Origin: an uncultured Myxococcales bacterium
GTDB lineage: Bacteria > Myxococcota_A > UBA9042 > DTJE01
Reading direction: 5' to 3'
Assembly: GCA_903847405.1 (NCBI GenBank)
Contig: CAINDP010000170.1
Coordinates: 1-54,040, forward strand
Length of the DNA stretch: 54,040 nucleotides
Numbering within the stretch: the first letter of the stretch is position 1; each line of letters begins with the position of its first letter. Of this stretch, positions 25,042 through 52,022 are shown piece by piece. The notes below the pieces were generated by a model, which saw only the letters and a list, made by a program, of their open reading frames with translations, did no database searches and had not been told where the DNA came from. A program made the translations under genes and the position numbers.

Positions 25042-26865
25042 GTGCGGATGACCGGCACAGGGCCATTCACAAGGGCCCACGTGACCTACATCACCGTCCT
25101 GACCGTGGTCTCGACGGTCTGGCTGGCGGCGCTGCTGATCACCGAGCCCCGCCTCGTCCAGCACCCGATCCAGCACCACGGCATCGCCATCGTGACCTTC
25201 CTGGTCCTCGCCGTCGCCAGCCGCCTGATGGCGTTCCCGGTGGCCGGCACCGGCAGCTTCGGCCTGGACACCTCGATCTACGTGGCCACGCTGCTCACCC
25301 TCGGGGTCGGGCCGGCAATCCTGATCGTCGTGGCGACGATGCTGCTGCGGGGCGGCCTGGACTGGATGCGCCGCGCCTACCGCGGGACCCGCTGGCCCGT
25401 CCCGGTGTCGCTGGCGCGGCTGCTCTTCGGACCCATGCTGACCGGCGCCGGAATCTCGGTGCTGGGCCTGGTGGCCTCGCCCGAGGCCTTCGCCCTCCAG
25501 ATGAAGTCCCACGCCGTCCTGGCCGTCGGGCTGTTCCTGGCGACCACCGCCGGCCTCATCATTCCCCAGTTCGCGCTGATCATCATGTCCTACCGCCTCA
25601 ACGGCATCCCCTGGCGGACCCTGACCCGGGACGTCCTGTGGCCCGGACTGGCGGCCGAACTGGCGTTCGTGCCCATGGGCTTCGCCCTCGCCTACTCGTA
25701 TCGCGACCGGGATCCGCCGACCCTGATTGCGCTGGGCGTCTCCTACGTCATCTTCGCCTACGTCTTCCGCCGCATGTGGCGCAGCCGGGAATCGCTGCGC
25801 GAGCAGGCCCGGGAGCTGGAAGTCGTCGAGGAAGCCGGTCGCGCGGCCTCGTCCACCCTGGACATCGAGGAAATCGGGCGCCGCATCGGCATCTCGCTGC
25901 TGGCTGCCATCGACCGGGCACAGGGCGTGGTGCTGACGGTCGTGACCAGCGAGGCCGGTGCGGGACGGCACCTGGTCCGCGCGGTGGATCGGCGCCACAA
26001 GCCCGGCGTGATCGCCGCCGTCCGGCACTCCATCGTGGCCGACTTCGACGCCGATCCGGATACCCTGCCCGAAATCGAGGCCACCCCCGCGGAAACCGCG
26101 TCCACCGGCCCGGTGATCTCCCTGGCCTTGACGGGCCCGGACCACGCGCCGACACCCGGCTGGCTGTCCGTGGTCCTTCGCCCCGGTTCGCGCCTCCAGG
26201 ATTCCGATCGTCGCCTCTGCGAGCGCCTCGCCCGCCAGGCCTCCATCGCCGTCGCCAACTGGCGCCTGTACACCATGGCGACCGAGGACGGCCTCACCGG
26301 ACTCTTCGTGCGGCGCTACGTCGATGCGCGCGTGCGCGAGGAGTACGAGCGGTCGACACGCTCCGGAGGATCCTTCGGCCTGCTGATGATCGACGTCGAC
26401 AACCTCAAGACCGTCAACGACCGGTACGGCCATCCCTCGGGCGACCGCCTGCTGCAGGCCGTGGCCGCCGCGATCCGGGCGTCGGTGCGCGGCATGGACG
26501 TCCCCGGCCGATGGGGCGGCGACGAATTCGCGCTGCTGGTGCCCGAAATGGGACTGGAGGAAGGGACGGCCGTCGCCCACCGCCTGTCCAACGAGGTCGG
26601 CCTGCGATCGTTCCAGGTCGGGACCGCCATGGTGATCCCGTCGGTCTGCATCGGCGTGGCGGCCTACCCGGAATGCACGGCGGCGGACCCGGCCGCCCTG
26701 GTCGCCGTGGCGGACCAGGCGCTCTATGTGGCCAAGAAATCCGGTTCGAAGGGACGCGTGGTCGTGGCTGAGGCGACGCGACCGCTGCCGGCGTTGCGCT
26801 CCGGCGGATTGGACGCACCCGCCCCCGAACCTTCCGGCCCCCTGGACGACGCAGCGGATCGGTGA
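25042..26865 (+). CDS. Membrane-bound GAF-GGDEF diguanylate cyclase
   Basis: 607 residues from GTG 25042 (GAGGA five bases upstream). Residues about 13-243 hold six to seven hydrophobic helices, a membrane sensory module of MASE type. A coiled linker (REQARELEVVEEAGRAAS) and a GAF-like domain (about 275-400) follow. The cyclase domain has ATEDGLTGLFVRRY, IDVDNLKTVNDRYGH, an intact active site GGDEF (492-496) and an inhibitory site RGMD (483-486) five residues ahead. It should make cyclic di-GMP and be product-inhibited. A weak promoter (-10 TACAAT, 25009-25014) lies after era. Confidence 0.92.
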   Translation: MRMTGTGPFTRAHVTYITVLTVVSTVWLAALLITEPRLVQHPIQHHGIAIVTFLVLAVASRLMAFPVAGTGSFGLDTSIYVATLLTLGVGPAILIVVATMLLRGGLDWMRRAYRGTRWPVPVSLARLLFGPMLTGAGISVLGLVASPEAFALQMKSHAVLAVGLFLATTAGLIIPQFALIIMSYRLNGIPWRTLTRDVLWPGLAAELAFVPMGFALAYSYRDRDPPTLIALGVSYVIFAYVFRRMWRSRESLREQARELEVVEEAGRAASSTLDIEEIGRRIGISLLAAIDRAQGVVLTVVTSEAGAGRHLVRAVDRRHKPGVIAAVRHSIVADFDADPDTLPEIEATPAETASTGPVISLALTGPDHAPTPGWLSVVLRPGSRLQDSDRRLCERLARQASIAVANWRLYTMATEDGLTGLFVRRYVDARVREEYERSTRSGGSFGLLMIDVDNLKTVNDRYGHPSGDRLLQAVAAAIRASVRGMDVPGRWGGDEFALLVPEMGLEEGTAVAHRLSNEVGLRSFQVGTAMVIPSVCIGVAAYPECTAADPAALVAVADQALYVAKKSGSKGRVVVAEATRPLPALRSGGLDAPAPEPSGPLDDAADR

Positions 26866-37654: not shown

Positions 37655-40342
37655 TCAGGCGGGAACCGCGGCGGGGGCGCTTCCGGACAGCGGAATCTTG
37701 ATCGTGAACTCGGCCCCGGCGCCCTCCTCGCCCCCGACGTCGATGGTGCCCTTGATGGAATGCACCACGCGCCAGACGATGGTCAGCCCCAGGCCCATGC
37801 CCCTGCCCGGCCCCTTGGTCGTGAAGAAGGGCGTGAAGATTCGGTCCCGCTGCTCCCGGGGGATGCCGGCGCCGTTGTCCCGGATCGTCAGCAGCACCTG
37901 TCCGCCATCGACCCGGCCGCGGATCCGCACCAGGCCTCCCTCTTCCGGCGACGCCTCGATAGCGTTCTGGATCAGGTTGGTCAGTACCTGGTGGAACTCC
38001 TCGGGGACACAATCGACGAAGCCCTGGCCCTGGAGGTCCGTTTCGACCCGCACGTCGCGGCCGGTCGCCGGCAGCACGATGTCGATGACGTCGTTCACCG
38101 CGGTGAACACATCGTAGGCCCCGACCCGCCGCGCATAGCCCTCGCGGCTGTACTTCCGCATCAGGTCCACCGTGCCCGCGATACGCCGCACGCCGGCGTC
38201 GGCCGTCTCGAACATCTTCTTGGCGCGCGTTTCCGCGACCTGGACGACCTTCGCCTCCTCGGGGGTCAGTTCCCGGCCCGCAGTCTCCCGCAACAGCGTC
38301 ACGACCTTGCCCATGTCGGTCTTCACCAGGGCGACCGCGTTCTTGATGTAGTTCAACGGGTTGTTGATTTCGTGCGCCATGCCGCTGGCGACCTTTTCCA
38401 GCGAGTCGACCTGCTGGTTCAGCAGGAGGTCCGCGTGCGTGCCCTCGATGTGCAGCAGCGTCCGGACCGATTGCAGCAGTTCCTTGGGGTGGAAGGGCTT
38501 GGTCAGGTACAGGTTGACGCCCGACTCCATGCCCGCGATGCGATCGTCCAGGTCGCCGCGCGCCGTCAGCATGATGATCGGCGCCGCCTTCAGGGACGGG
38601 TCGTTGCGCAGACAGCGCGCCAGTTCCATGCCGTCCATCCCGGGCATCATGTAGTCGGTGATGATCAGGTCGGGCCGCAGCCGCTTCGCCAGTTCGAACC
38701 CCTTCACCCCGTCCTCGGCCGCGAGGATCTTGAAGTGCTGGCGCAGGCTCATGTGGACCAGCCGGATCACGTCCGGCGTGTCCTCCACCACCAGCACCGT
38801 GTAGGGCCGCGAACCCTCGTCCGCGTCGCGCTCCACGATGCGCCGTTCGGTGGCCTCGGCGATGTCCAGCAACCGGTAGTCGTCCCGGGTGGCCAACTGG
38901 ACCGACCAGTCCACGATGTTGTGGTCGTCGGAACGCTGGGCCAGGGACGTGTCGCGGTTCTCGGACCGCCGATCCAGCGCCTCGGGCCGGAAGTGGTCCC
39001 GCCCCTTGAACAACTGCACGTGGAACGCGGCGCCCTTGCCCTCCTCGGCCTCGGCCCAGATCCGCCCGCTGTGCAGGTTGACCAGTTCCTTGGCCAGGGC
39101 CAGGCCAATGCCCGTGCCGCCGTACTTCCGGGTGCCCGCCATGTCGACCTGGTAGAAGCGCTCGAAGACCCGCTCCGCCTTGTCTGCCGGGAAGCCGGGC
39201 CCATTGTCGATCACCGACACCAACACGTGGTCGCTGGCGTCCAGCATGCGGATCCGGATGTGCCCGCCCTCGGGCGTGAACTTGGCGGCATTGGACAGCA
39301 GGTTCACGAACACGCGTTCCAGCCGGTCCTGGTCGTAGGTCATCAAGGACTGCTCGACGTCCGACTCGAAGGTCATCTCGATGCGCTTGCGCTGGGCCAG
39401 CGGCATGACCGACTGGACCAGCCCGCGCAGGTAACCCACCAGGTCGTTGTCGATGACGCGCAGCCGGATCCGGGACTCCTCCAGTTTCGACAGGTCCAGG
39501 AGGTCCTGGATCAGCTTGAGCAGTTTCATCCCGTTGCGGTGCATCGTCTGGATGGTGGCGGACTGCTCCTCCGAGAAATGCCCCATGTCCCCGGACGACA
39601 TCAGTTCCAGCGGCGACAGGATCATCGCCAGCGGAGTCTTCAGCTCGTGCGTGATGTTCGCGAAGAACTGCGACTTGAACTTGTCCAGTTGCTTCAGTTC
39701 CTTGTGCGCCAGTTCCAGCGACGCCTTCGTCTTCTGCAGGATGAACTCCCCGCCGACCTGCTCGTGCTGGGCGTTGAAGGTCAGGACCTGGCCCACGACG
39801 ACCGTGATGGCGATGGACACCAGGAAGAACAGGTTCGACACCGTGGCCTCGATCAGGCCGGTCTGCCCCCAATCCGCGATCAGGGCGTTCGGGATCACGT
39901 AGGACAGGACGATGATCCCGTGCGTCAGCATGACCAGCCAGCGCGGCCAGATATACATCAAGCCCGCGCCCAGCATCACCAGCAGCAGGCCCGCGTAGTA
40001 GCCTGTCATGAAGCCTTCCAGGAACGGGATCATCAGCGAGATCCCGAGGCCCAGCAGGACGGCATGGGCCGACGTCAACCACCGCCAGTTCCGTTCGAAG
40101 AACGCCGTCTTCAGCAACAGCAGGATGACGATGGACACGACCGTGACGAACGCCCGGGCTGCGTAGAATACCGGCAGTCCGATGGCCCCGTCCCGCCCGC
40201 CCAGCATGACGTAATCGAGGATGCCGAACATTGGGTAGATGATGGCGGTCAGGATCAGGGCCAGGCGGGCGCCGTTCCGGTTGCGTTCAACCAGCCATAC
40301 GGCCCATTTCTCCTCGATTTCGGTACTGAACTCGATTGCCAT
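37655..40342 (-). CDS. Membrane hybrid sensor kinase with kinase-receiver-kinase layout
   Basis: 895 residues from ATG 40342, overlapping the methyltransferase stop (TGATG). About six hydrophobic segments (25-190) form a membrane module like 7TM/MASE sensors. Then kinase 1: His232 in ANITHELKTPLAM, ATPase N box VNLLSNAAKF, GTGIGLAL. Receiver about 514-635: acidic EDT, acceptor Asp563 in ITDYMMPGMDG, Lys615 in YLTKPF. Then kinase 2: His657 in ASGMAHEINNPLNYIKN and a second ATPase ending at about 885 (NLIQNAIEA, GMGLGL). Two complete histidine kinase cores flanking one receiver are unusual. It is the last gene of the three-gene signalling operon; a lipid-signal receptor like PhcS is inferred from context. 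Confidence 0.9.
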   Translation of the reverse strand: MAIEFSTEIEEKWAVWLVERNRNGARLALILTAIIYPMFGILDYVMLGGRDGAIGLPVFYAARAFVTVVSIVILLLLKTAFFERNWRWLTSAHAVLLGLGISLMIPFLEGFMTGYYAGLLLVMLGAGLMYIWPRWLVMLTHGIIVLSYVIPNALIADWGQTGLIEATVSNLFFLVSIAITVVVGQVLTFNAQHEQVGGEFILQKTKASLELAHKELKQLDKFKSQFFANITHELKTPLAMILSPLELMSSGDMGHFSEEQSATIQTMHRNGMKLLKLIQDLLDLSKLEESRIRLRVIDNDLVGYLRGLVQSVMPLAQRKRIEMTFESDVEQSLMTYDQDRLERVFVNLLSNAAKFTPEGGHIRIRMLDASDHVLVSVIDNGPGFPADKAERVFERFYQVDMAGTRKYGGTGIGLALAKELVNLHSGRIWAEAEEGKGAAFHVQLFKGRDHFRPEALDRRSENRDTSLAQRSDDHNIVDWSVQLATRDDYRLLDIAEATERRIVERDADEGSRPYTVLVVEDTPDVIRLVHMSLRQHFKILAAEDGVKGFELAKRLRPDLIITDYMMPGMDGMELARCLRNDPSLKAAPIIMLTARGDLDDRIAGMESGVNLYLTKPFHPKELLQSVRTLLHIEGTHADLLLNQQVDSLEKVASGMAHEINNPLNYIKNAVALVKTDMGKVVTLLRETAGRELTPEEAKVVQVAETRAKKMFETADAGVRRIAGTVDLMRKYSREGYARRVGAYDVFTAVNDVIDIVLPATGRDVRVETDLQGQGFVDCVPEEFHQVLTNLIQNAIEASPEEGGLVRIRGRVDGGQVLLTIRDNGAGIPREQRDRIFTPFFTTKGPGRGMGLGLTIVWRVVHSIKGTIDVGGEEGAGAEFTIKIPLSGSAPAAVPA

Positions 40343-42000
40343 CAGTCCCTGCGCACCCTGAGGAAGGGGTTGATGCCCGTCGCCTCTTCCACGATTTCCA
40401 ACTGCGCACCGGGGACGGCGGCCCGCCCGAAGTCCAGCATGTCGCCGTGGCTGCGATACGTCAGGTACCAGTCCAGGTGGTGCTCGAAAATCCACTTCCC
40501 CGGATTCGTCGGCATCATGTTGCCGATGTAGGCCGAACCGCCCGGGGCCAGGTTCGCGTAGAAACTGCGGGTCAGGCCCACGGCGGTGTGGAACCGGAGG
40601 TAGTCGAAGAGGCCCGCGCAGAAGATGATGTCGAACGGACCGAACCCCGCGAACAGCGTCGGGTCGGTCAGCAGGCGCTTGATCGAGTCGAAGAGGTACG
40701 TCACCTTCACGTTGGGATGCCGCTCGACCAGGCGCGACACGCGGCCCTGGGCGTACGACAGCGCCAGCCGGTCCTGGTCGAACAGCAGCAGTTCCAGCGG
40801 GGGCAGCGGCTCCTTGGATTCCGTCAGCATCTCGACGATTTCCTGGGCCGGGCCCGCGGCGACGGACGCCACCTTCAGAGGCCGATCCTGATCCCAGGTC
40901 CGCAGCCGATCCCGCAGCAACCCCTTCACCATGTCCTTGCGGGAACGGACGGCCGCCGGACCGGTACAGGCGCACGCGAACAGGTGCATGGCCTTGCCGA
41001 ACAGCGTGGCGCCTTCGAACTTCTGGTCGTAGACGTACCGCATGACCTCGAAATCGCCCGGGTAGCCCAGGGGCTTGATCCGCGCACGGTGCAGGACCGG
41101 GGCGGTCATGAACAGGTCCTGCACGTTGCGGATCGAAAACTCCTTCAGGCGCTGCCAGTCGTCCCCGGTCGCCGCCCGCAGGGCCGCATCCACCTGGACC
41201 GACTGCTGGAGGCACAGGGGGATGAACTCCGAGCGGATGCGGTGGATCAGGGCGGCCCGAACGGGTGAATCGCTCTCGACATGGACCACGTGCCAGGGCA
41301 GCGACGCCTCGAGGGCGTTCATCTGGCCCCGGAAGTCCTCCAGGAACAGCCGGCACTCGCCGACCATCGACTTGAAGTTTTCGTACCCGGCCACGTACCA
41401 GCCCGAGCCGACGTAGTCGATCCCGCGCTCGTCGAACCCCTTCCAGCGACTGACGTTCTGCAACTGCAGCACGTCGTCGATGCTCATCAGCGAATCCACG
41501 AAGGACGCGCCGACAACCACCTTCCCGTCCGGAAGGGTCCGCACGGAAACGACCCGCGCCTCGCCTGCGTAGGCATCGTACCCGTCGAAACTGACAGCCA
41601 GCCGCGGGATGACGTCGCCGTTGGCGAACGCGACGCCATCGGGCTGCTCGAACCCGACGCCGTTCTGCGAAACGTCACACAGGACGCAAGGCAGGGCGAC
41701 GCCGGACGCATCCTGGATGCAGACCTGCCCCGCCACCGAGCCCAGATCCACCGGACGGTACCGCTGGGGGCGGAAAAACACCTCGCGACCAGCGCCGCCG
41801 TCGAGGTCCTCGCAGTCCCGTCCGCGGACCTCGGCCCGGGCCGGACCTGCGCCGGCAGCCGTTGGCGGAACGACCTCCGCGGTCCGGACGGCCACCGGCG
41901 CGGTGGCGCCGGCCGACTGCTGCGGATTCCGTGGGGCATCCCCCGTCGGATCCTTGCCGGGCACCGAAAGTCCGACCAGGTCTCTCAGATTCGCTTCCAC
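40342..42000 (-). CDS. PilZ-domain SAM methyltransferase, PhcB-like
   Basis: 552 residues from GTG 42000. Residues about 75-170 are PilZ-like: a basic stretch FRPQRYRPVD and the D-x-S-x-x-G site DVSQNG (109-114) that binds c-di-GMP; the companion RxxxR arginines are not cleanly spaced. Residues about 190-540 hold a class I methyltransferase: RIKPLGYPGDFEVMRYVY (308-325), SAM loop KVASVAAGPAQEI (376-388), the acid FDQD (407-410) and DIIFCAGLFDYL. The GYPGD...GPAQE arrangement is that of proteins annotated as 3-hydroxypalmitate methyl ester synthases (PhcB). It probably methylates a fatty-acid-like signal, with PilZ coupling it to c-di-GMP; experiment is lacking. Confidence 0.78.
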   Translation of the reverse strand: MEANLRDLVGLSVPGKDPTGDAPRNPQQSAGATAPVAVRTAEVVPPTAAGAGPARAEVRGRDCEDLDGGAGREVFFRPQRYRPVDLGSVAGQVCIQDASGVALPCVLCDVSQNGVGFEQPDGVAFANGDVIPRLAVSFDGYDAYAGEARVVSVRTLPDGKVVVGASFVDSLMSIDDVLQLQNVSRWKGFDERGIDYVGSGWYVAGYENFKSMVGECRLFLEDFRGQMNALEASLPWHVVHVESDSPVRAALIHRIRSEFIPLCLQQSVQVDAALRAATGDDWQRLKEFSIRNVQDLFMTAPVLHRARIKPLGYPGDFEVMRYVYDQKFEGATLFGKAMHLFACACTGPAAVRSRKDMVKGLLRDRLRTWDQDRPLKVASVAAGPAQEIVEMLTESKEPLPPLELLLFDQDRLALSYAQGRVSRLVERHPNVKVTYLFDSIKRLLTDPTLFAGFGPFDIIFCAGLFDYLRFHTAVGLTRSFYANLAPGGSAYIGNMMPTNPGKWIFEHHLDWYLTYRSHGDMLDFGRAAVPGAQLEIVEEATGINPFLRVRRD

Positions 42001-42024
42001 CCGCTTCCACTCCCGGTCTTGCGA

Positions 42025-43242
42025 CTAGATCGCTCGCGATACAGGGTGATTGTTCGGTGGCAGAGTTACGACGAACCGCGCTCCGCCACCCGGAGTGTCG
42101 CCGCATTCGATGCGGCCTCCATGGGACTCGGCAACCAGCCGGGCCATATACAACCCCATGCCCATGCCGCCCTCGCCCTTCGACGACATGAACGGCTCGA
42201 ACAGGTGTTCGCGAATCTCGGGCGCGACGCCGCTCCCCGAATCCTCGACGGCCAGGATCACGCCGCCGTCCGGCGTCCGGCTGGCCTCCACGACCAGGGT
42301 CGCGCCATGCTGCGTGGCATGCACGGCGTTGCGAATCAGGTTCACCAGGGCCTGCACCAGTTTGCGCGGGTCGCCCAGGACCTCGGGGAGGTCCTCCTCC
42401 AGGCGCAGATCCAGCTTGCGACGCCGGAACTCCATGTCCATGCGCATGACGGTGACCGCGTCACGGACCACCGACGCCGGCTGGACCGGAGCCAGCGCAA
42501 CGCCCAGCCGGCCGCTCCGGGCGAACTGGTTCATCGATTCCAGGGTGGACAGCAGGTTCCGCAGCCCCGACAGCCCGATCTGCACCGACTCGCGGATCTC
42601 GTCCGACACGCCGCCGGACTCGACCTCGACCTCCAGGTACGACAGGCCCATCAGGAAGTTGCGAAGGTCGTGGGTCACTCCGGAAGCCAGGCGGCCCATC
42701 GTGCCCAGTCGCTCCAGGTGCATCAACTGCTGCTGCGCGGCCTGCAGGTCGCCCAGCGCCTTGGCCAGATCGTCGTTGCGCACGGTCACCAGGCCCACCA
42801 ACCCTGCGATCGCGCGGTGCTGATAGACGTGGTCGCTGGCATCGACGACGGCCCGCAGGACCACTTCGGCGTCGAACGGCTTCGTCAGGAACCGGAAGAC
42901 CTGAGCACGGTTGATGGCCGACATGATGGCCGGCGAATCGGTGTACGCCGTCAGGATGATGCCGGCGATGTCCGGCTGGGTCTGGCCGACCTTTTCCAGC
43001 AGCTCGACGCCGGTCATGCCCGGCATGCGCTGGTCGGCCACGATGACGTCGATCGCGTGCGCCTGGCTCAGGGCAAAGGCCTCGGCGGCGCTGTCGGCCC
43101 GGTAGATGACGTACTCGTCCTGCAGGAGCGCCTCGAGCACGTCGAGGTTCTCCGGTTCATCGTCGACCATCAGCACGGCGCGGGACAGCAGTCGTCCCAC
43201 ATCGTACCGCTCGACCATCGATCGTAGTGATTCCTGTACCAT
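42025..43242 (-). CDS. Receiver-histidine kinase, PhcR-like
   Basis: 405 residues. N-terminal receiver: DD27-28, acceptor Asp70 in IVADQRMPGM, Lys121 in FLTKPF; C-terminal HisKA with His191 (ASGVTHDLRNFLMG) and HATPase (NLIRNAVHAT, DSGSGVA, GMGMGLYMA). A receiver fused to the front of a kinase is the layout of Ralstonia PhcR. Start ATG 43242 is close to the transcription start expected from the promoter at 43253-43282; ATG 43218 is an alternative. The gene leads the operon and is 24 bases from the PilZ-methyltransferase gene. Confidence 0.85.
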   Translation of the reverse strand: MVQESLRSMVERYDVGRLLSRAVLMVDDEPENLDVLEALLQDEYVIYRADSAAEAFALSQAHAIDVIVADQRMPGMTGVELLEKVGQTQPDIAGIILTAYTDSPAIMSAINRAQVFRFLTKPFDAEVVLRAVVDASDHVYQHRAIAGLVGLVTVRNDDLAKALGDLQAAQQQLMHLERLGTMGRLASGVTHDLRNFLMGLSYLEVEVESGGVSDEIRESVQIGLSGLRNLLSTLESMNQFARSGRLGVALAPVQPASVVRDAVTVMRMDMEFRRRKLDLRLEEDLPEVLGDPRKLVQALVNLIRNAVHATQHGATLVVEASRTPDGGVILAVEDSGSGVAPEIREHLFEPFMSSKGEGGMGMGLYMARLVAESHGGRIECGDTPGGGARFVVTLPPNNHPVSRAI

Positions 43243-43282: not shown

Positions 43283-43435
43283 GAAAACAGCACCCAATTA
43301 TTCTTTGCCATCGATTCCTGCGTCCAGGCAAGCGCGTTCAGGCGAATCCGCCATTCACTTGCACGCCCGCAAGGCGAATGCTGGTTCCCGTGACGCCGTC
43401 AGGCTAGGATCGGGCCGTTGCTTCTGGAGTCGTTG

Positions 43436-44713
43436 ATGCCCCGATACGACGTGGTATTTCGCGAGGCCCGGATCCTGGCCGAAGGCGGCGAGGAGCGCCA
43501 GGTGGACGTGGCGGTCCGGGACGGCCGCATCCAGACCATCCTTCCCGGGATCCCGGACGAAGGTGCCGACGAGGTGCGCTGCGCCGGCCGCTGGCTGCTC
43601 CCCGGTGCCGTGGACATGCACGTGCACCTGCGGGATCCCGGCATGACCCACAAGGAGGATCTGGCGACCGGAACGGCGGCGGCAGTGGCGTCCGGCGTCA
43701 CTACGGTCTGCGACATGCCCAACACCCGACCGCCGGTCCTGGGCATCGACGAGTTCCGCGCCAAGGCGGCCCGGGCCCGGGAGGTCGCGCACTGCGACGT
43801 CCGCCTCTACGTCGCCCTGGGTCGCGACAACGTGGACGCCATCGCCCGTTGCGCGGCCGAACCCTCCTTCGCCGGCGTGAAGGTCTTCCTGGGAGCCACC
43901 ACCGGGGACATGCTCAGCGACGACCGGACCCTGGAAGCCGCCGTCGACGCCCTGCCCTGCCTGTTCGTGTTCCATGCCGAGGACGAGGGTGTCCTTCGAC
44001 GCAGCCTGGGAACGGCCGGACCCACGCCCGACGCCTCGGCGCACCACGTCCTTCGCCCCGCCGCCGCGGCGATCGAGGGTGCCCGGCGCATCGCCGCCCT
44101 GGCCGCACCGGGTCGCCGCCTGCACATCTGCCACCTGTCGGCCGCCGACGAACTGCCGTTCCTGGCCGGCCCCGACGGCCCTACCGGCGAAGTCGCGCCG
44201 CATCACCTCTGGTTCACCGCCGACGACACGGCGCGAATCGGCAATCTCCTGAAGGTCAACCCACCCGTGCGCCTGGCAACGGACCGCGACGCCCTGCGGA
44301 CGGCCCTGGCCGACGGCCGCATCGCCGCGGTCGCCACCGACCACGCGCCCCACATCCTGCAGGAAAAGGCCGAACCCTACCCGACCGCTCCGTCGGGCGT
44401 GCCCGGACTGGACACGCTGGTTCCCTCGACGCTGCGCCTGGTCCAACTGGGCCTGCTGTCGATGGCGCGGGCCGTGGACGCCCTGTCGGCGGCGCCCGCC
44501 CGACTGCTGGGCCTGCCGGACCGCGGCCGCGTCGCCGAAGGCCTGAAGGCGGACCTCTACCTCTGGGACCCGCGTCGAACCTGGACCGTCAATCGCGGCG
44601 ACCTGCGAACGAAATGCGGCTGGAGCCCCTTCGAGGGCGTCACGCTGGCGGCGCTCCCCGATGCGGTGTGGTTCGACGGCCGAAAGGTGGTCAGCCGCGA
44701 GTCGATCGGATAG
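43436..44713 (+). CDS. pyrC: Dihydroorotase
   Basis: 425 residues from ATG 43436 (GGAG six bases upstream). Amidohydrolase fold: metal ligands in DMHVHLRDPG (60-69), TVCDMPNTRPP, FHAEDEGV, CHLSAADE and catalytic DHAPH. This is the class I type (long, HxHLRDPG) of pyrimidine biosynthesis, converting carbamoyl aspartate to dihydroorotate. No pyrB or other pyr gene is adjacent, so an allantoinase-like relative cannot be entirely excluded, though the motifs favour dihydroorotase. Confidence 0.9.
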   Translation: MPRYDVVFREARILAEGGEERQVDVAVRDGRIQTILPGIPDEGADEVRCAGRWLLPGAVDMHVHLRDPGMTHKEDLATGTAAAVASGVTTVCDMPNTRPPVLGIDEFRAKAARAREVAHCDVRLYVALGRDNVDAIARCAAEPSFAGVKVFLGATTGDMLSDDRTLEAAVDALPCLFVFHAEDEGVLRRSLGTAGPTPDASAHHVLRPAAAAIEGARRIAALAAPGRRLHICHLSAADELPFLAGPDGPTGEVAPHHLWFTADDTARIGNLLKVNPPVRLATDRDALRTALADGRIAAVATDHAPHILQEKAEPYPTAPSGVPGLDTLVPSTLRLVQLGLLSMARAVDALSAAPARLLGLPDRGRVAEGLKADLYLWDPRRTWTVNRGDLRTKCGWSPFEGVTLAALPDAVWFDGRKVVSRESIG

Positions 44714-45636: not shown

Positions 45637-47373
45637 CTACTTGCCGCCGGTGACGCGGAAGATGAACGGGTAGGACACCTTGACCGTGCCGCCGCCCTTC
45701 GGGGACGGGAACTGCCAGGTGGCCACGCGGCTCATCAGGCACTGCTCGACGGCCTGGCTGCCCAGGCTGGAGACGCCGACACGAACGGCCGTGACCTTGC
45801 CCGTCGGAAGGATGATCCACTCGATCTTGACCTGTCCGGCCAGATCGGGGTTCTTCTGGACTTCCTGCTGGTAGCACCAGCGGACCTGGTCCATCTTGGT
45901 CTGGATGTAGCGACGGACGGTTTCCTTGTCCAGTTCGCCGGACACCGTCGAGATGCCGGTGTATACCATCGGCTCGCCGCCGCCCTTGAACTTGATCTTC
46001 GACGCGGCGCCCTCTGCGTCGCTCTTGGACAGGCCCGAAATCCCGCGCAGGTCCGCCGCGCCGAACTCGCCGCCGCCGCCCCACGCGCCGGTCCCGCGGA
46101 ACCCGCCGCCGCCGCCCCCACCCAGGGTGCCGCCGAAGGCGTCCAGGCCCAGGGCCAGTTCGGCGTCCATGCCGCGATCGCCGATCACGCGGATGCCCAT
46201 CATGCCGCCGCCCAGGCCCGGGCCCGCGGCATCCAGCACCTGGTTCAACAGGTCCTGCTGCTGGCCCATCACGCGCGTCAGGGCGGTGTCGGCGATCTTC
46301 TTGTTCTTTTCGACCTGGTCCTCGGTGACCAGCTTCGACGTCGGTTTCTCGTCAACGGGGCGGGGTGTCAGTTCGGTCCCGGGCTTCTGGGCGTCGGCCA
46401 GCTTCTTCGCTTCCTCGGCCTTCTTCTGGTCCTCTTCGACCTTGCGCTCCAGCATGGCGACCTGGATCTTCTTCAGGGCCTGCGTGCGCTTTTCGTAGGG
46501 GTCCCGGACGGACTTCAACTGCTCCTCGGGAACCAGGGTGACCATCACCAGGAACAGGAGGTGCAGGATCAGCGACAGCACAAGGTACATGTGCTCCCGC
46601 ATGTTGAACTTCTTCCACCAGGACGTCTTCGGTGCCTGGGGAATGTGGGTCAGGCCCAGCAGGATGGTGAAGTCGCCGAACTTCAGGCGCGCGCGGGTCT
46701 TCATGTCGATGCGGGCCCACTTGCCCTGCTCGATCTGCTCGCGCCGCTGCATTTCCGGCAGGCGGATGATCTTGCCGTCGACCAGGAAGTCGCCGTCGAT
46801 CTTCGGGCTGGATACGTCCACCAGGAACTGCCGGCCGTCGGCCTTCACGAATTCGATGAGGTCGGTGCCGATGACGTCGGCCGGAAGGAAGAAGTCCACT
46901 CCCGGGGTCGAGCCGATCGTGATGCCGGTGCCCTCGGGGTAGTACTTCGCCTGCAGGACCTTTTCGCCCCACAGCAGCGCGGTTTCCAGCCCGATCTTCG
47001 CGTTGGCCATGTCCTGGACGGCGGCCGGCGCAAAGAATGCGTCCGACGTCGCACGCTCGGTGGCCTGTTCGAAGTCCAGCCGCAGTTTCGTGTCGCCGAT
47101 CTGCACCTCGTCGCCCGGCCGCAGGACGGCCTGGGAGACCTTCACGCCGTTGACCAGCGTTCCGTTGGTGCTTTCGAGATCCGTCAACCGGACCTCGCCG
47201 CTGTCTGCTATCTCGATGACGCAATGCTGGCGTGACACGTTCTGGTCGTTCAGGCGCAGGTGCGCCTGTCCGGCCTTGCCGACCCGGATGGTCTTCTGCG
47301 TGAAGACCTCCTCCCGGACCAGCTTGTCGCCTTCAAAGAGCGTGATGCGAATCGTCGGCGTCTGGGTCTGCAT
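45637..47373 (-). CDS. FHA/TonB-domain protein, GltG (AgmX/PglI)-like
   Basis: 578 residues. N-terminal FHA domain with the phosphothreonine site S47-RQH and STNGT (68-72); a second beta-rich domain (about 130-240); one membrane span (about 255-275, YLVLSLILHLLFLVMVTL). A charged coiled linker and a glycine-rich stretch (GGTLGGGGGGGF) lead to a TonB-like C-terminal domain typical of AgmX/PglI (VRRYIQTKMDQVRWCYQQ, PTGKVTAVRV, ATWQFPSPKGGG). In Myxococcus GltG spans the inner membrane and reaches towards the outer one. Together with the surrounding TPR proteins this points to a Glt-like envelope complex. Confidence 0.85.
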   Translation of the reverse strand: MQTQTPTIRITLFEGDKLVREEVFTQKTIRVGKAGQAHLRLNDQNVSRQHCVIEIADSGEVRLTDLESTNGTLVNGVKVSQAVLRPGDEVQIGDTKLRLDFEQATERATSDAFFAPAAVQDMANAKIGLETALLWGEKVLQAKYYPEGTGITIGSTPGVDFFLPADVIGTDLIEFVKADGRQFLVDVSSPKIDGDFLVDGKIIRLPEMQRREQIEQGKWARIDMKTRARLKFGDFTILLGLTHIPQAPKTSWWKKFNMREHMYLVLSLILHLLFLVMVTLVPEEQLKSVRDPYEKRTQALKKIQVAMLERKVEEDQKKAEEAKKLADAQKPGTELTPRPVDEKPTSKLVTEDQVEKNKKIADTALTRVMGQQQDLLNQVLDAAGPGLGGGMMGIRVIGDRGMDAELALGLDAFGGTLGGGGGGGFRGTGAWGGGGEFGAADLRGISGLSKSDAEGAASKIKFKGGGEPMVYTGISTVSGELDKETVRRYIQTKMDQVRWCYQQEVQKNPDLAGQVKIEWIILPTGKVTAVRVGVSSLGSQAVEQCLMSRVATWQFPSPKGGGTVKVSYPFIFRVTGGK

Positions 47374-47391
47374 TTCTCCCCCCGGCCCGTG

Positions 47392-47697
47392 TCAGAGGTC
47401 TTCGGCGGACTTCAGGATCTCGTCGACGAAATCGGTGCGGACCTTGATCAGGCTGGGACCTTCGTCCAGCCGGATCACTTCCGCCACTCCCTGGTCGGGA
47501 CGGAGGAATTGCGCCTCGACCACATCGCCCTCGAAGTCGAATGACTTTTCCTTGACCGGGACGTCGCCCTTCTTGGCATCCGCCGCCTTGGCCGCCGCAG
47601 GGGGGGCCTTGGCGCCGCTCTTCGACTGTGCCAGCGCAGGCAGAGCCAGAGCCAACATGGCTGCCGTCGCAACCGCGAACATCAGGAAACGCTTCAT
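47392..47697 (-). CDS. Small periplasmic protein of the Glt-like cluster
   Basis: 101 residues from ATG 47697. Signal peptide with AxA cleavage (ALPALAQS, about residue 23); an Ala/Lys linker; then a compact C-terminal region, FDFEGDVVEAQFLRPDQGVAEVIRL followed by RTDFVDEILKSAEDL. Shape and position between the GltG-like and large TPR genes suggest a small partner of the complex. No known domain identified. Confidence 0.78.
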   Translation of the reverse strand: MKRFLMFAVATAAMLALALPALAQSKSGAKAPPAAAKAADAKKGDVPVKEKSFDFEGDVVEAQFLRPDQGVAEVIRLDEGPSLIKVRTDFVDEILKSAEDL

Positions 47698-47716
47698 GGC
47701 GCACCTCTCGGGTCGA

Positions 47717-47745
47717 ATCCTAAACCCGGATCGGGCGAATTACAA
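47717..47745 (-). promoter_or_regulatory. Internal promoter of the Glt-like cluster
   Basis: Minus strand -35 TTGTAA (47745-47740), a 17-base spacer and -10 TAGGAT (47722-47717), 20 bases before the small periplasmic gene. Confidence 0.5.
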
Positions 47746-47780
47746 CCTGCACGGCCCGGGCATTCGCCCAAGTCCGCGTT

Positions 47781-50700
47781 TCACTTCCCCCCTGCCGCCG
47801 CCGCCGGGGCAGGAACCGCTTCCGACGTGGGCGCCGGAGCCGGGGCCGGGGTCGGAGCCGGGGCCGGCGCAGGAGCCGGCATCGGCGCGGGTGACCTCTC
47901 GGCCTCGATCTGCAACCGCAGGGACTCCAGGCGACGCGTCGCCTCCTTGCGCTTCGGATGGTTCGGCGTGGCGAGGCGCAGGAACGCGTCGCACTCGTTC
48001 ACGGCCAGGTCCAGCTTGTTCAGGTTTTCCTGGTAGACCAGGCACAGGTTGAACCGTACGTCGGCGTTGTTCGGGTCACGGGCGAGGTCCAGCAGGATCC
48101 GCAGGGCGTCCTCGCCCTTGTTCAGGCCGCGCAGGGCGACGGCATGGCCCAGGCGGGCCTCGACGCTGGTGGGCCGCAGCCGGGCCGCCTCGGCGAACTG
48201 CTCGACCGCGGTCGTCGCGTCCTTGTAGGCCAGGGTCACGGCGCCGAAGTTCATCCGGGCGTCGAACAGGCGCGGATCGTCGCGAACCGCCTTCTGGAAC
48301 AACTGCACGGCCTGGCGCACTTCGCCGGTCTTCAGGAAGGTCAGGGCCAGCAGGTTCTGGATCGGCCCGTCACTGGGGCTCAGGCTGAGCGCGTTGCGGC
48401 CGACCAGGACGCCGACGTCGGTCAGGCCCAGTTCCAGGTAGGCGGCCCCGAGAACCTCGTAGGCGTCCATGGAATCAGGATCCGAAACGAGGGCCTTCCG
48501 GGCCAGGTTGATGGCCTCCGGGTAGTTCCGGTCGCGCTGCGCCTTGGATGCGTAGTAGTTGTTCGCGACGCTGTTGGCGGGGTCGATCTGCAGCGCCTTG
48601 TCGAACTTCGCGACGGCGTCGGCGGTGCGGCCCTCAGCCAGTTCCAGCCGCCCCTGCTGGGCCAGCGCGTCGCCGTCCTGCGGATTCTTCGCGAAGGCCT
48701 TTTCGAACGCGGCCTTGGCGCCCGCACGATCCCCCTTGAACGCCAGCAGGGCGCCCAGGTTGTACGAAACGTTCGCCGAGGCGTCGGGGGCCGCGGCAGC
48801 CGTCCGGATCCGGTCCTCGATGCCGGTGTCCGTCCACTTCGGCGCATCCGCGCCTTCCTTTTCCGGCTTCAACGTCGCGCGGCCCTCGTTCAGGGTGTAC
48901 GCGCCGGGCTGCGGGCGGATGTCGGGCAGGGTCTTGAACTCGGGGTCCAGGCGCAGCAACTGCTCTTCGGCCTGGGCCGAGTAGCTGTTGTACCACTTCA
49001 ACTGCTGGGCCTGTTCGACGCAGCGGCGGTAGGACTCCTTGGCGCGATCCCAGATCGGACCGGCCTTGTCGGCCAGGCCCTGCTTGAAGAACAGCTTCTG
49101 GTCCTGGTTCAACTGGGGCGGGACCGGCGAGTTCTCGATGGCCTCGGCCAGTTCCTGGAAGCCGGCGCCCTTGCGCGCCCAGGCGGCGATCGTCCAGTTG
49201 GGCTGGCCGAAGGCTTCGACGCTGGTCAGCGTGTCCATCGCTTCCTTGATCAGGCCGATCTTCTTGGCGATGGCCTCGGCAAGGACCTTTTCCGGCAGTT
49301 TCAACTGGACGGCGCGCACGTCGGCGAGGACCGACTCGCCCTTGTAGAACTGGGCTTCGGCCGCCGCGGCCAGGCCGACGGGGGTGACCTTCGTCTTTTC
49401 CTCGTCCGTCAGGTCCTCGTAGGCCTTGACCGTCTTCTTGAACCAGTCGAGGGCCAGGGCTTCCTTCTTCTGGGCCCGCAGGGTCAGGCCGATGCGCAGG
49501 TGGGCCTTGAGGTACAGGTCCAGGCTGGACTTGCCGTACTTCGCCAGCCAGGTCTCGTATTCCTTCTGGGCCAGGGCGTGCTTGCCCTGCTTTTCCAGGG
49601 TGCTGCCGATTTCCAGCGCGACCGCGATGGCATAGGAGGCCTTCGGGAACAGCGTCAGGTACTTGCGCAGATCCTTGATGGCCGCGTCGTACTCGCCCAG
49701 ACCGGTCCGGAAGATCGTCGCGTAGCGCAGCGACTCTTCCGTCAGTTCGTGGGCCGGCTGCAGGCCGACGAACACTTCATAGATGCGCGCGGCTTCGGAG
49801 TAGACCGCCAGGCGGCGGTACGTGTCGGCGATGTTGTACAGGGCGCGGATCGCCAGCGGCGAGTTCGGCATCTCGTTGACCAGCTGCTCGTTGGCCTTCA
49901 GGCTGCGTTCGACCAGGCGGGCCTTGAAGAAGTTGTTCGCCGCGTTGATCAGCGAACGATCCTTCAGGGGCGTGCCGGCGAAGCGCTTCACGTAGTCCAG
50001 GAAGCATTCGGCGGCCACGGTGTAGCGGCCGGCCTGCTCGAACTCGTAGCACTTGTTGAAGTCCTTCTGCTCGTTGATGCGGGTGATGATCCCGGGGACG
50101 TCGCCCTGCATCAACTTGGGATTCTTCGCGATGAGTTCCGTGGCCGCGTACAGGCCCTTGATGTTGCGCTGCAGGGTCAGCGACGACAGCAGCAGGCGGG
50201 CCGAGTCGGGGGCGTTCTCGGCGTCGGGAGCGTCCTCGATGATCGTCCGGAACCCGGCCTCGGCCTTGTCGAAGTGGTTGTAGCGATACCAGATCATGGA
50301 GGCGAGGAAGCGCGCCTCGATCACGTCGGGGGCATCCTTCGGGGCCATCGCCAGGTAGCGCTCGCACGCCTTGACCAGCTTCGTTTCGAAGACCGGGAGT
50401 TCCCTGGGCTCGGTGTCGCCGGAGTCATCCGACTTCGTCTTGTCCTTCGTGAAATCGGCCAGCTTGTAGTAGGCGGAAACGGCATGGTGGGCGGCGTCCT
50501 GCGCCTTCGGCCCGTTGGGCTGCAGTTCGACGATGGTCGTGTAGCGCTCCGCGGCCTCGTTGTACTTGCCCAACTGGAACAGGAGGGCCGCGTAGTTGTA
50601 GGTCATGTTGTAGTACTCAGGCGAATTCGGGAACAGCCGCAGGTACTCGTTGTACAGGAGGTGCGTGAATTCCTTCGTCGCCTCCTCCATCGTCACCGAA

Positions 50701-52022
50701 ACTTCCTTCTGGTAGTTGCTGGCGATGACGCGGACCAGTTCCTCGGCCTTCGACATTTCGGCGTCGATGAAGACCTTCGGGGCGTCGGTCTGGAACTTGT
50801 CCAGCAGGCCGATCAGGCGGCGGGTTTCCTCGACGACGCGGGCCTTGGCGGCCAGCTTGTACACGTTTTCCAGGATGGCGCGCTGGTACTCGACGACCTT
50901 GTACTGGTCCTGCGCATCCTTGTATTCGGCGATGATCTTCTTGTACAACTTCGTGGACTTGTCGTACTCGCCCTGGCTGGCATAGCCTTCCGCCAGGCGG
51001 ACGGCGAGGTCCATGTACCCGGTGGGCGCGATGGCCTTGAAGACCTTGATCGCGTTCTCGGGGCTGCCGACCTGCGAGTAGACCATGACCAGGTCGCGCT
51101 GGGACTCGCGCAGCAACTGGGCGCCGTACCCGATGGACTTGGCCTGGTCGCCCTTCGCGTAGTCGATGACCTTCAGGAACTGGTTCATCGCCTCTTCGTG
51201 CTGGCCCATGTTGTAGAAGCACCAGCCCTTCTTGTAGATGGCCAGGCCGTAGGGCGACGACATCGGGAAGTTTTCGACTTCCGCGTACATCTTCTGGGCT
51301 TCGTCCATGCGCCCGCTGTTGAAGTAGAACTCGCCGATGTTCAGCAGGGCGTCGGGGACGTACCGGCTGTTGGGCGCCTCGCGGATGACGCGGGCGAAGT
51401 AGGGAAAGGCCTGATCCTGGCGGTCCATCTGCACCAGGGTGTAACCCAGCAGGTACAGGACCTGGTCCAGGTTCAGGTAGTTCGGATAGCGATCGACGAC
51501 CATCATGTAGGCGTTGGCCGTTTCTTCCTGCCAGTAGGTCCGCTGCTTCAGCAGTTCCTGCTGTTCGGACTGGACCTGGGCCACGGCCCCGTCGTCGCCG
51601 GCGTCCTGCGCCTTCTTGAGGCGCGTGAACATTTCGTTGCCGTAGGCCTTGTTGAAGAAGTTTTCCGCCTTGTCCCAGTACAGGCGCGCCAGGCGGGCGT
51701 AGTACTCGGGCTTGCCGGGGTCCTCTTCGTCGGTGGTTTCGATCAACTGGTTCAGGGTGGAGATGGCCTGCTCCAGCTTCTCGTCGGCCATGCGCTCGGG
51801 GCGGGAGGCGATCGCCTTGACGCCCATGGGCTTGGCCGGTCCCTTCGGCTTCTGGTCCCCCAGGACGTCCGTCGTGGCCGTCTTCGGGGCGCCCGAGTCG
51901 GGCAGCGAGTACGTCTTGATTTCGGCGCCCGCCTTCTTTTCGTCCTTCTTCTGGGCGAAGGCCGAGGGCGCAACCAGCGTCGCGACAACCAGGAACCCGA
52001 GGGTGCGGGAGAGCATCGTCAT
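47781..52022 (-). CDS. Large TPR periplasmic protein, GltD-like
   Basis: 1413 residues from ATG 52022 (GGAGG six bases upstream); ATG two codons later is an alternative. Signal peptide with PSAFAQ cleavage, a charged linker, then arrays of tetratricopeptide-type helical repeats over about 80-500 and 540-850, a helical middle, and a classic TPR block at about 1070-1350 (NVSYNLGALLAFKGDRAGAKAAFEKAF, ...). It ends in Pro/Ala repeats (PAPAPAPTPAPAP). Size and signal fit a periplasmic scaffold such as GltD of Myxococcus. The order of the genes supports this, but a different TPR scaffold remains possible. Confidence 0.8.
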   Translation of the reverse strand: MTMLSRTLGFLVVATLVAPSAFAQKKDEKKAGAEIKTYSLPDSGAPKTATTDVLGDQKPKGPAKPMGVKAIASRPERMADEKLEQAISTLNQLIETTDEEDPGKPEYYARLARLYWDKAENFFNKAYGNEMFTRLKKAQDAGDDGAVAQVQSEQQELLKQRTYWQEETANAYMMVVDRYPNYLNLDQVLYLLGYTLVQMDRQDQAFPYFARVIREAPNSRYVPDALLNIGEFYFNSGRMDEAQKMYAEVENFPMSSPYGLAIYKKGWCFYNMGQHEEAMNQFLKVIDYAKGDQAKSIGYGAQLLRESQRDLVMVYSQVGSPENAIKVFKAIAPTGYMDLAVRLAEGYASQGEYDKSTKLYKKIIAEYKDAQDQYKVVEYQRAILENVYKLAAKARVVEETRRLIGLLDKFQTDAPKVFIDAEMSKAEELVRVIASNYQKEVSVTMEEATKEFTHLLYNEYLRLFPNSPEYYNMTYNYAALLFQLGKYNEAAERYTTIVELQPNGPKAQDAAHHAVSAYYKLADFTKDKTKSDDSGDTEPRELPVFETKLVKACERYLAMAPKDAPDVIEARFLASMIWYRYNHFDKAEAGFRTIIEDAPDAENAPDSARLLLSSLTLQRNIKGLYAATELIAKNPKLMQGDVPGIITRINEQKDFNKCYEFEQAGRYTVAAECFLDYVKRFAGTPLKDRSLINAANNFFKARLVERSLKANEQLVNEMPNSPLAIRALYNIADTYRRLAVYSEAARIYEVFVGLQPAHELTEESLRYATIFRTGLGEYDAAIKDLRKYLTLFPKASYAIAVALEIGSTLEKQGKHALAQKEYETWLAKYGKSSLDLYLKAHLRIGLTLRAQKKEALALDWFKKTVKAYEDLTDEEKTKVTPVGLAAAAEAQFYKGESVLADVRAVQLKLPEKVLAEAIAKKIGLIKEAMDTLTSVEAFGQPNWTIAAWARKGAGFQELAEAIENSPVPPQLNQDQKLFFKQGLADKAGPIWDRAKESYRRCVEQAQQLKWYNSYSAQAEEQLLRLDPEFKTLPDIRPQPGAYTLNEGRATLKPEKEGADAPKWTDTGIEDRIRTAAAAPDASANVSYNLGALLAFKGDRAGAKAAFEKAFAKNPQDGDALAQQGRLELAEGRTADAVAKFDKALQIDPANSVANNYYASKAQRDRNYPEAINLARKALVSDPDSMDAYEVLGAAYLELGLTDVGVLVGRNALSLSPSDGPIQNLLALTFLKTGEVRQAVQLFQKAVRDDPRLFDARMNFGAVTLAYKDATTAVEQFAEAARLRPTSVEARLGHAVALRGLNKGEDALRILLDLARDPNNADVRFNLCLVYQENLNKLDLAVNECDAFLRLATPNHPKRKEATRRLESLRLQIEAERSPAPMPAPAPAPAPTPAPAPAPTSEAVPAPAAAAGGK

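Follow-up and report, generated by a model that had tools for sequence, protein, structure and literature searches.

The window, a 54,040 nt stretch of DNA from an uncultured Myxococcales bacterium (GenBank assembly GCA_903847405.1, contig CAINDP010000170.1, positions 1 to 54,040 of the forward strand), carries a three-gene operon whose products resemble components of Phc (phcBSRQ), the quorum sensing system by which Ralstonia cells sense their own numbers. All three genes are on the minus strand, running from 43242 to 37655. The original prediction, made from the letters and their open reading frames, described them as tightly packed, which was confirmed along with its coordinates: 24 nt separate genes 1 and 2, while genes 2 and 3 overlap by a single base. 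The genes and their domains are as follows.

42025..43242, minus strand: gene 1, PhcR-like receiver and histidine kinase (HK), 405 amino acids (aa), with D70 and H191 (Pfam; hhalign against PhcR)
40342..42000, minus strand: gene 2, PilZ and PhcB-type methyltransferase, 552 aa, from a predicted GTG start (hhalign against PhcB; structure model; tree)
41491..41778, minus strand: PilZ domain of gene 2, residues 75-170, homologous to the PhcB N-terminal domain (Pfam of relatives, profile, model)
41761..41772, minus strand: R77-P-Q-R80, first half of a presumed nucleotide site (RxxR; the canonical form is RxxxR)
41659..41676, minus strand: D109-V-S-Q-N-G114, second half of a presumed cyclic di-GMP (c-di-GMP) site (DxSxxG)
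40342..41103, minus strand: class I S-adenosylmethionine (SAM) methyltransferase domain of gene 2, residues ~300-552, with the PhcB-family motifs KPLGYPGDFEVM and GLFDYL
37655..40342, minus strand: gene 3, PhcS-type sensor hybrid kinase, 895 aa, comprising a multi-transmembrane sensor, HK1, a receiver and HK2
39743..40342, minus strand: PhcS-type multi-transmembrane sensor of gene 3, residues 1-200, with the motif YYAGL (hhalign against the PhcS sensor)
38993..39709, minus strand: first kinase module (HK1) of gene 3, H232
38465..38797, minus strand: receiver domain of gene 3, D563
37685..38446, minus strand: second kinase module (HK2) of gene 3, H657, the better match to the PhcS kinase

Every domain of the operon was supported by Pfam except the PilZ and methyltransferase domains, which fell below the cut-off in the single gene 2 protein. 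No Pfam family was reported for residues 1-200 of gene 3, and an NCBIfam search returned no family for gene 2. The three-gene cluster was found repeatedly across families of the window's phylum, which excludes a chance origin. No DNA-binding domain is present in gene 1 or gene 3, and the operon encodes no DNA-binding regulator; PhcR and PhcQ likewise lack a DNA-binding domain (PMC8578825).

Relatives of gene 2, including those of Ralstonia, Cupriavidus and Paraburkholderia, were gathered by a scan of genome contigs. The PhcB references came from R. pickettii, R. soli, Cupriavidus and others, used in place of R. solanacearum PhcB. The reference loci can be taken as true phc operons, since those of Ralstonia and Cupriavidus have the gene order B-S-R-Q, their protein lengths agree with published ones (PMC8578825), and the conserved histidine of their PhcS is residue 230, as published (PMC11960443). 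Profile-profile comparison (hhalign) of the gene 2 family with PhcB gave E 4.7e-77; the alignment spans 446 columns and takes in both ends, and the shared motifs lie within this full-length homology. Gene 2 is the sole match to the PhcB profile in the window's genome, and the Pfam methyltransferase model was matched by 28 of its 33 relatives. In a maximum likelihood tree the PhcB set forms a single clade (support 100/100), the sister of which consists of four PilZ-methyltransferases (98/85); the window protein is in the next group out (93/84), and forms carrying a cyclic nucleotide-binding (cNMP) domain, together with most of those without an N-terminal domain, branch further out. The branching order is likely rather than proven, because the tree was rooted at its midpoint and contains some long branches. 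By this tree gene 2 is a sister-group member of the PhcB family and not a strict orthologue, so that the methyltransferase, as had been predicted, groups with PhcB and not with unrelated methylases. One PhcB-type relative (L150) is labelled Myxococcota.

Gene 1 was predicted to have the receiver-kinase layout of PhcR, and its entire length matches the PhcR family (hhalign, E 4.5e-59, 353 columns). Its receiver matches those of PhcR and PhcQ equally, and far better than the receiver of gene 3 does. Gene 3 was expected to be a membrane kinase; it does combine a membrane sensor with a kinase, but as a hybrid containing two kinase modules and not as a simple kinase. Comparison of its first 205 residues with the PhcS sensor gave 99.7% (E 1e-25, hhalign), against 1.4% or less for reversed and shuffled controls. 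The PhcS kinase aligns with HK2 at E 1.7e-53 and with HK1 at E 1e-32, and since HK2 is the better fit, PhcS may be regarded as gene 3 minus the HK1-receiver part, or gene 3 as PhcS plus that part. A plain PhcS-PhcR fusion was considered for gene 3 and rejected, because it is HK2 that the PhcS kinase matches, and the receiver most similar to those of PhcR and PhcQ belongs to gene 1.

Linkage of synthase and sensor was scored in 189 genomes of the window's phylum, with a strong methyltransferase match defined as E 1e-100 or better. A sensor of the family lies within 3.3 kb of 32 of the 34 strong matches; the other two are cut by contig ends, and in the same genome a matching sensor lies at the end of another contig. 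Some of these loci went into the sensor profile, which favours detection there but does not affect adjacency. The operon is accordingly conserved in relatives, as the original prediction required of its own idea, and the Phc assignment holds for family and layout, given the PhcB, PhcS and PhcR profile matches and the conserved linkage. At the level of sequence profiles, the homology of all three proteins to the Phc synthase, sensor and receiver-kinase can be considered established. The same sensor profile also detects PhcS in the betaproteobacterial loci, the kinase next to a Pseudanabaena homologue (E 7.6e-12) and, next to a Rhizobium homologue, a GGDEF-EAL protein (E 6e-9), and a PhcB-like methyltransferase was found on >120 rhizobial plasmids. 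Judged by these matches, the PhcB-PhcS pair extends well beyond the betaproteobacteria.

On three plasmids of Rhizobium and Roseateles (L034, L073, L072) a PhcB-like methyltransferase adjoins a membrane GGDEF-EAL protein with a PhcS-family sensor, the sensor matches being weak to moderate (E 5e-10 to 5e-6). The rhizobial enzymes resemble gene 2 in having a sensor of the same family in the adjoining gene, but they lack PilZ, and the sensor output is c-di-GMP turnover and not a kinase. Two further, distant PhcS-type sensors occur in the window's genome, in a GGDEF protein and a PAS-kinase-receiver protein (L192:5131-6582, L191:6596-8923).

The PilZ domain of gene 2 was recognised from several directions. 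Pfam PilZ was matched by 27 of the 33 relatives, and when the N-domain profile was compared with the PDB the 12 best matches were all PilZ structures (YcgR, VCA0042, Alg44, BcsA), although with weak values from E 0.0026. Structure prediction, proposed as a check, gave a confident result: the AlphaFold model of gene 2 (mean predicted local distance difference test score, pLDDT, 85) has a six-strand barrel within residues 91-167 followed by a helix at 174-185, with pLDDT >90 over nearly the whole barrel and low confidence for residues 1-74. The PilZ beta-barrel fold is present in gene 2, as judged from the model and the profiles. Across 19 sequences down to 16% identity, the only columns of the domain without variation are R77, R80 and G114, and the only near-invariant ones are D109 and S111. 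The second box, [DN]x[SA]xxG, occurs in 32 of the 33 relatives and reads DVSQNG at 109-114 in gene 2. The c-di-GMP site originally proposed here is thus intact in its DxSxxG half, but the arginine box has the spacing RxxR/RxxxxR in place of RxxxR. The PilZ effectors YcgR, VCA0042, Alg44 and BcsA share the fold and the DxSxxG box with gene 2; they differ in the partner domain and in the spacing of the arginine box.

The combination of PilZ with a signal synthase had been put forward as uncharacterised. Literature searches found no report linking PhcB to PilZ; the domain is, however, no special addition, because PhcB has a homologous N-terminal domain. The PilZ region of gene 2 matches the first 95 residues of PhcB at 96% (E 3.9e-9, hhalign), while reversed, shuffled and wrong-domain controls gave 8.3% or less. 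The predicted strands of gene 2 (91-96, 102-110, 114-118, 130-138, 141-155, 161-167) and of R. pickettii PhcB (7-14, 20-28, 32-37, 49-57, 60-74, 79-85) pair one to one in identical order. On this evidence, ordinary PhcB begins with a homologue of the gene 2 PilZ domain. PhcB starts past the arginine box, and where DxSxxG would stand it has a stretch resembling LQRxxL, so by alignment the nucleotide boxes are kept by the relatives of gene 2 and lost by PhcB. As the tree nests PhcB among PilZ-bearing relatives, PilZ is probably ancestral, and PhcB most likely descended from a PilZ-bearing enzyme; the domain on the synthase does not appear to be a new fusion. The adaptive mutation R22C in PhcB lowers signal output and sits outside the methyltransferase domain (PMC6989110), and in the present alignment and model it maps to strand 2 of the PilZ-like N-domain. 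The passages of that paper that were consulted do not mention PilZ, which makes the mutation an independent hint that the N-domain tunes the enzyme.

The window's genome has ample c-di-GMP machinery, with 24 GGDEF matches and 18 other PilZ matches. One GGDEF domain (26281-26748, plus strand, E 1.9e-38) lies in the window itself, about 11 kb from the operon.

Other branches of the methyltransferase family carry a different N-terminal domain. By alignment, a cNMP-binding domain appears to take the place of PilZ in eight homologues, seven on the planctomycete side and one in the window's phylum (L175-L181, L067), and Pfam confirmed it in the four that were checked. No PhcS-type sensor was found with the planctomycete enzymes within the stretches read. 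In a protein of 967 aa (L187:4152-7052, plus strand), a sensor of the PhcS type is fused to a class III nucleotide cyclase, a cNMP-binding domain and a diverged methyltransferase resembling PhcB; the sensor and methyltransferase were recognised by purpose-built profiles (E 2.9e-22 and 8e-27) and the other two by Pfam. This protein is possibly a one-protein signalling loop, and its domain content is the best evidence outside the window for a single circuit of nucleotide sensing, signal sensing and methyl transfer. A PhcB-related methyltransferase domain terminates a type I polyketide synthase on an Enterobacter ludwigii plasmid (L033:5655-8792, plus strand).

The operon is, in our estimation with somewhat better than even probability, a Phc-type cell-to-cell signalling circuit in which the synthase has retained a nucleotide-sensing domain, is gated by a second messenger and works with its own sensor. 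Gene 2 would use SAM to methylate a small acyl acid, most likely a 3-hydroxy fatty acid; from family membership we infer a 3-hydroxy fatty acid methyl ester as the product. Literature searches on such esters in myxobacteria returned nothing relevant. Its PilZ domain would bind c-di-GMP and so raise or lower methyltransferase activity, a form of gating that the retained boxes make plausible. The product would leave the cell and bind to the gene 3 membrane sensor; phosphate would then be relayed within gene 3, from HK1 via the receiver to HK2, and on to the gene 1 receiver. Compared with Phc of Ralstonia, all three proteins are homologous, the synthase and sensor genes are adjacent, and the multi-transmembrane sensor and the fold of the synthase N-domain are common to both. 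The differences are that the window synthase keeps the PilZ boxes and PhcB does not, that an additional HK-receiver module makes the sensor kinase a hybrid, and that the operon begins with the receiver-kinase gene and has no phcQ or phcA-type gene. Control of a methyltransferase by PilZ has a precedent in Pseudomonas aeruginosa, where MapZ inhibits CheR1 in response to c-di-GMP (PMC6370697). This is a likeness by analogy, as MapZ is a separate protein acting on a protein methyltransferase, whereas the PilZ domain of the window is in the same chain as a PhcB-like enzyme.

Several observations weigh against this circuit. The Pfam PilZ match of the gene 2 protein is weak (E 0.0031). The arginine box, R72xxxxR77xxR80, departs from the canonical RxxxR, so c-di-GMP binding may be absent or altered, and in seven relatives alanine replaces the serine of the second box. 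The identity of gene 2 to PhcB is 22-26%, and for this reason the substrate cannot be read from the sequence. Sensors of the same family also occur without an adjacent methyltransferase, so the sensor need not be specific for the product. No PhcQ-like gene (a receiver without kinase) lies between 37655 and 43450. There is no phcA-type LysR regulator in the operon; the rest of the genome was not searched for one, because LysR proteins are too generic to be assigned by homology.

The departure in the arginine box leads to an alternative with the same synthase and sensor, in which PilZ has lost c-di-GMP binding and instead helps the protein to fold or to dock with another, such as the receiver of gene 1; the degenerate domain of PhcB may have a similar role. 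PhcB functions without either box, and PhcQ, a receiver protein, influences PhcB output in vivo (PMC6989110), which makes contact between receiver and synthase possible. This alternative is nevertheless unlikely given that the box residues are the sole invariant or near-invariant positions of the domain, that five relatives (L053, L054, L057, L059, L060) have the canonical RxxxR at the same place, and that a cNMP domain occupies this place in other branches. The low identity to PhcB would also fit a diffusible signal other than a 3-hydroxy fatty acid methyl ester, made by methylating another acyl or polyketide-derived acid; a related domain terminates a polyketide synthase on Enterobacter plasmids, and sensor and synthase diverge together across phyla. 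A different product is somewhat unlikely in view of the full-length homology to PhcB, with its shared motifs and the same kind of sensor adjoining.

Still less probable, and in our judgement very much so, is that gene 2 methylates a protein of the operon (receiver or kinase) in the manner of CheR, with no diffusible signal. The control of CheR1 by MapZ through PilZ would be a model for this, and the few sequence-level PDB matches of gene 2 are CheR methyltransferases (E 0.005). PhcB is by far the closer relative, however, and a multi-transmembrane sensor of the PhcS kind accompanies nearly all strong matches. Structure searches gave match lists filled by methyltransferase chains, the closest solved fold to gene 2 being 3ocj and not CheR. 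A CheR-type protein methylase was rejected as the identity of gene 2 on these grounds.

Returning to the gated Phc-type circuit, a wider generalisation may be offered tentatively, with slightly less than even confidence. PhcB-type enzymes could be a broad class of second-messenger-gated autoinducer synthases, with PilZ or a cyclic nucleotide-binding domain at the N-terminus. Their partners would be membrane sensors of a single family, with outputs extending from kinases to the turnover of c-di-GMP or cyclic nucleotides. Ralstonia PhcB would then be a derived member that lost the nucleotide site and kept the domain as a regulator.

Upstream of the operon in the window is a dihydroorotase-like gene (43418-44713, plus strand), and beyond it, by eye, a gene for an FHA-type protein and genes for long TPR-repeat proteins (45637-52022, minus strand).

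Links between quorum sensing and c-di-GMP usually run by way of gene expression, or of sensors that synthesise or degrade c-di-GMP. If the proposed circuit is true, an autoinducer synthase under direct control of the second messenger would join the two by a short and new route. For the Phc family, the comparison provides a fold for the previously unexplained N-terminal domain of PhcB, the site of R22C.

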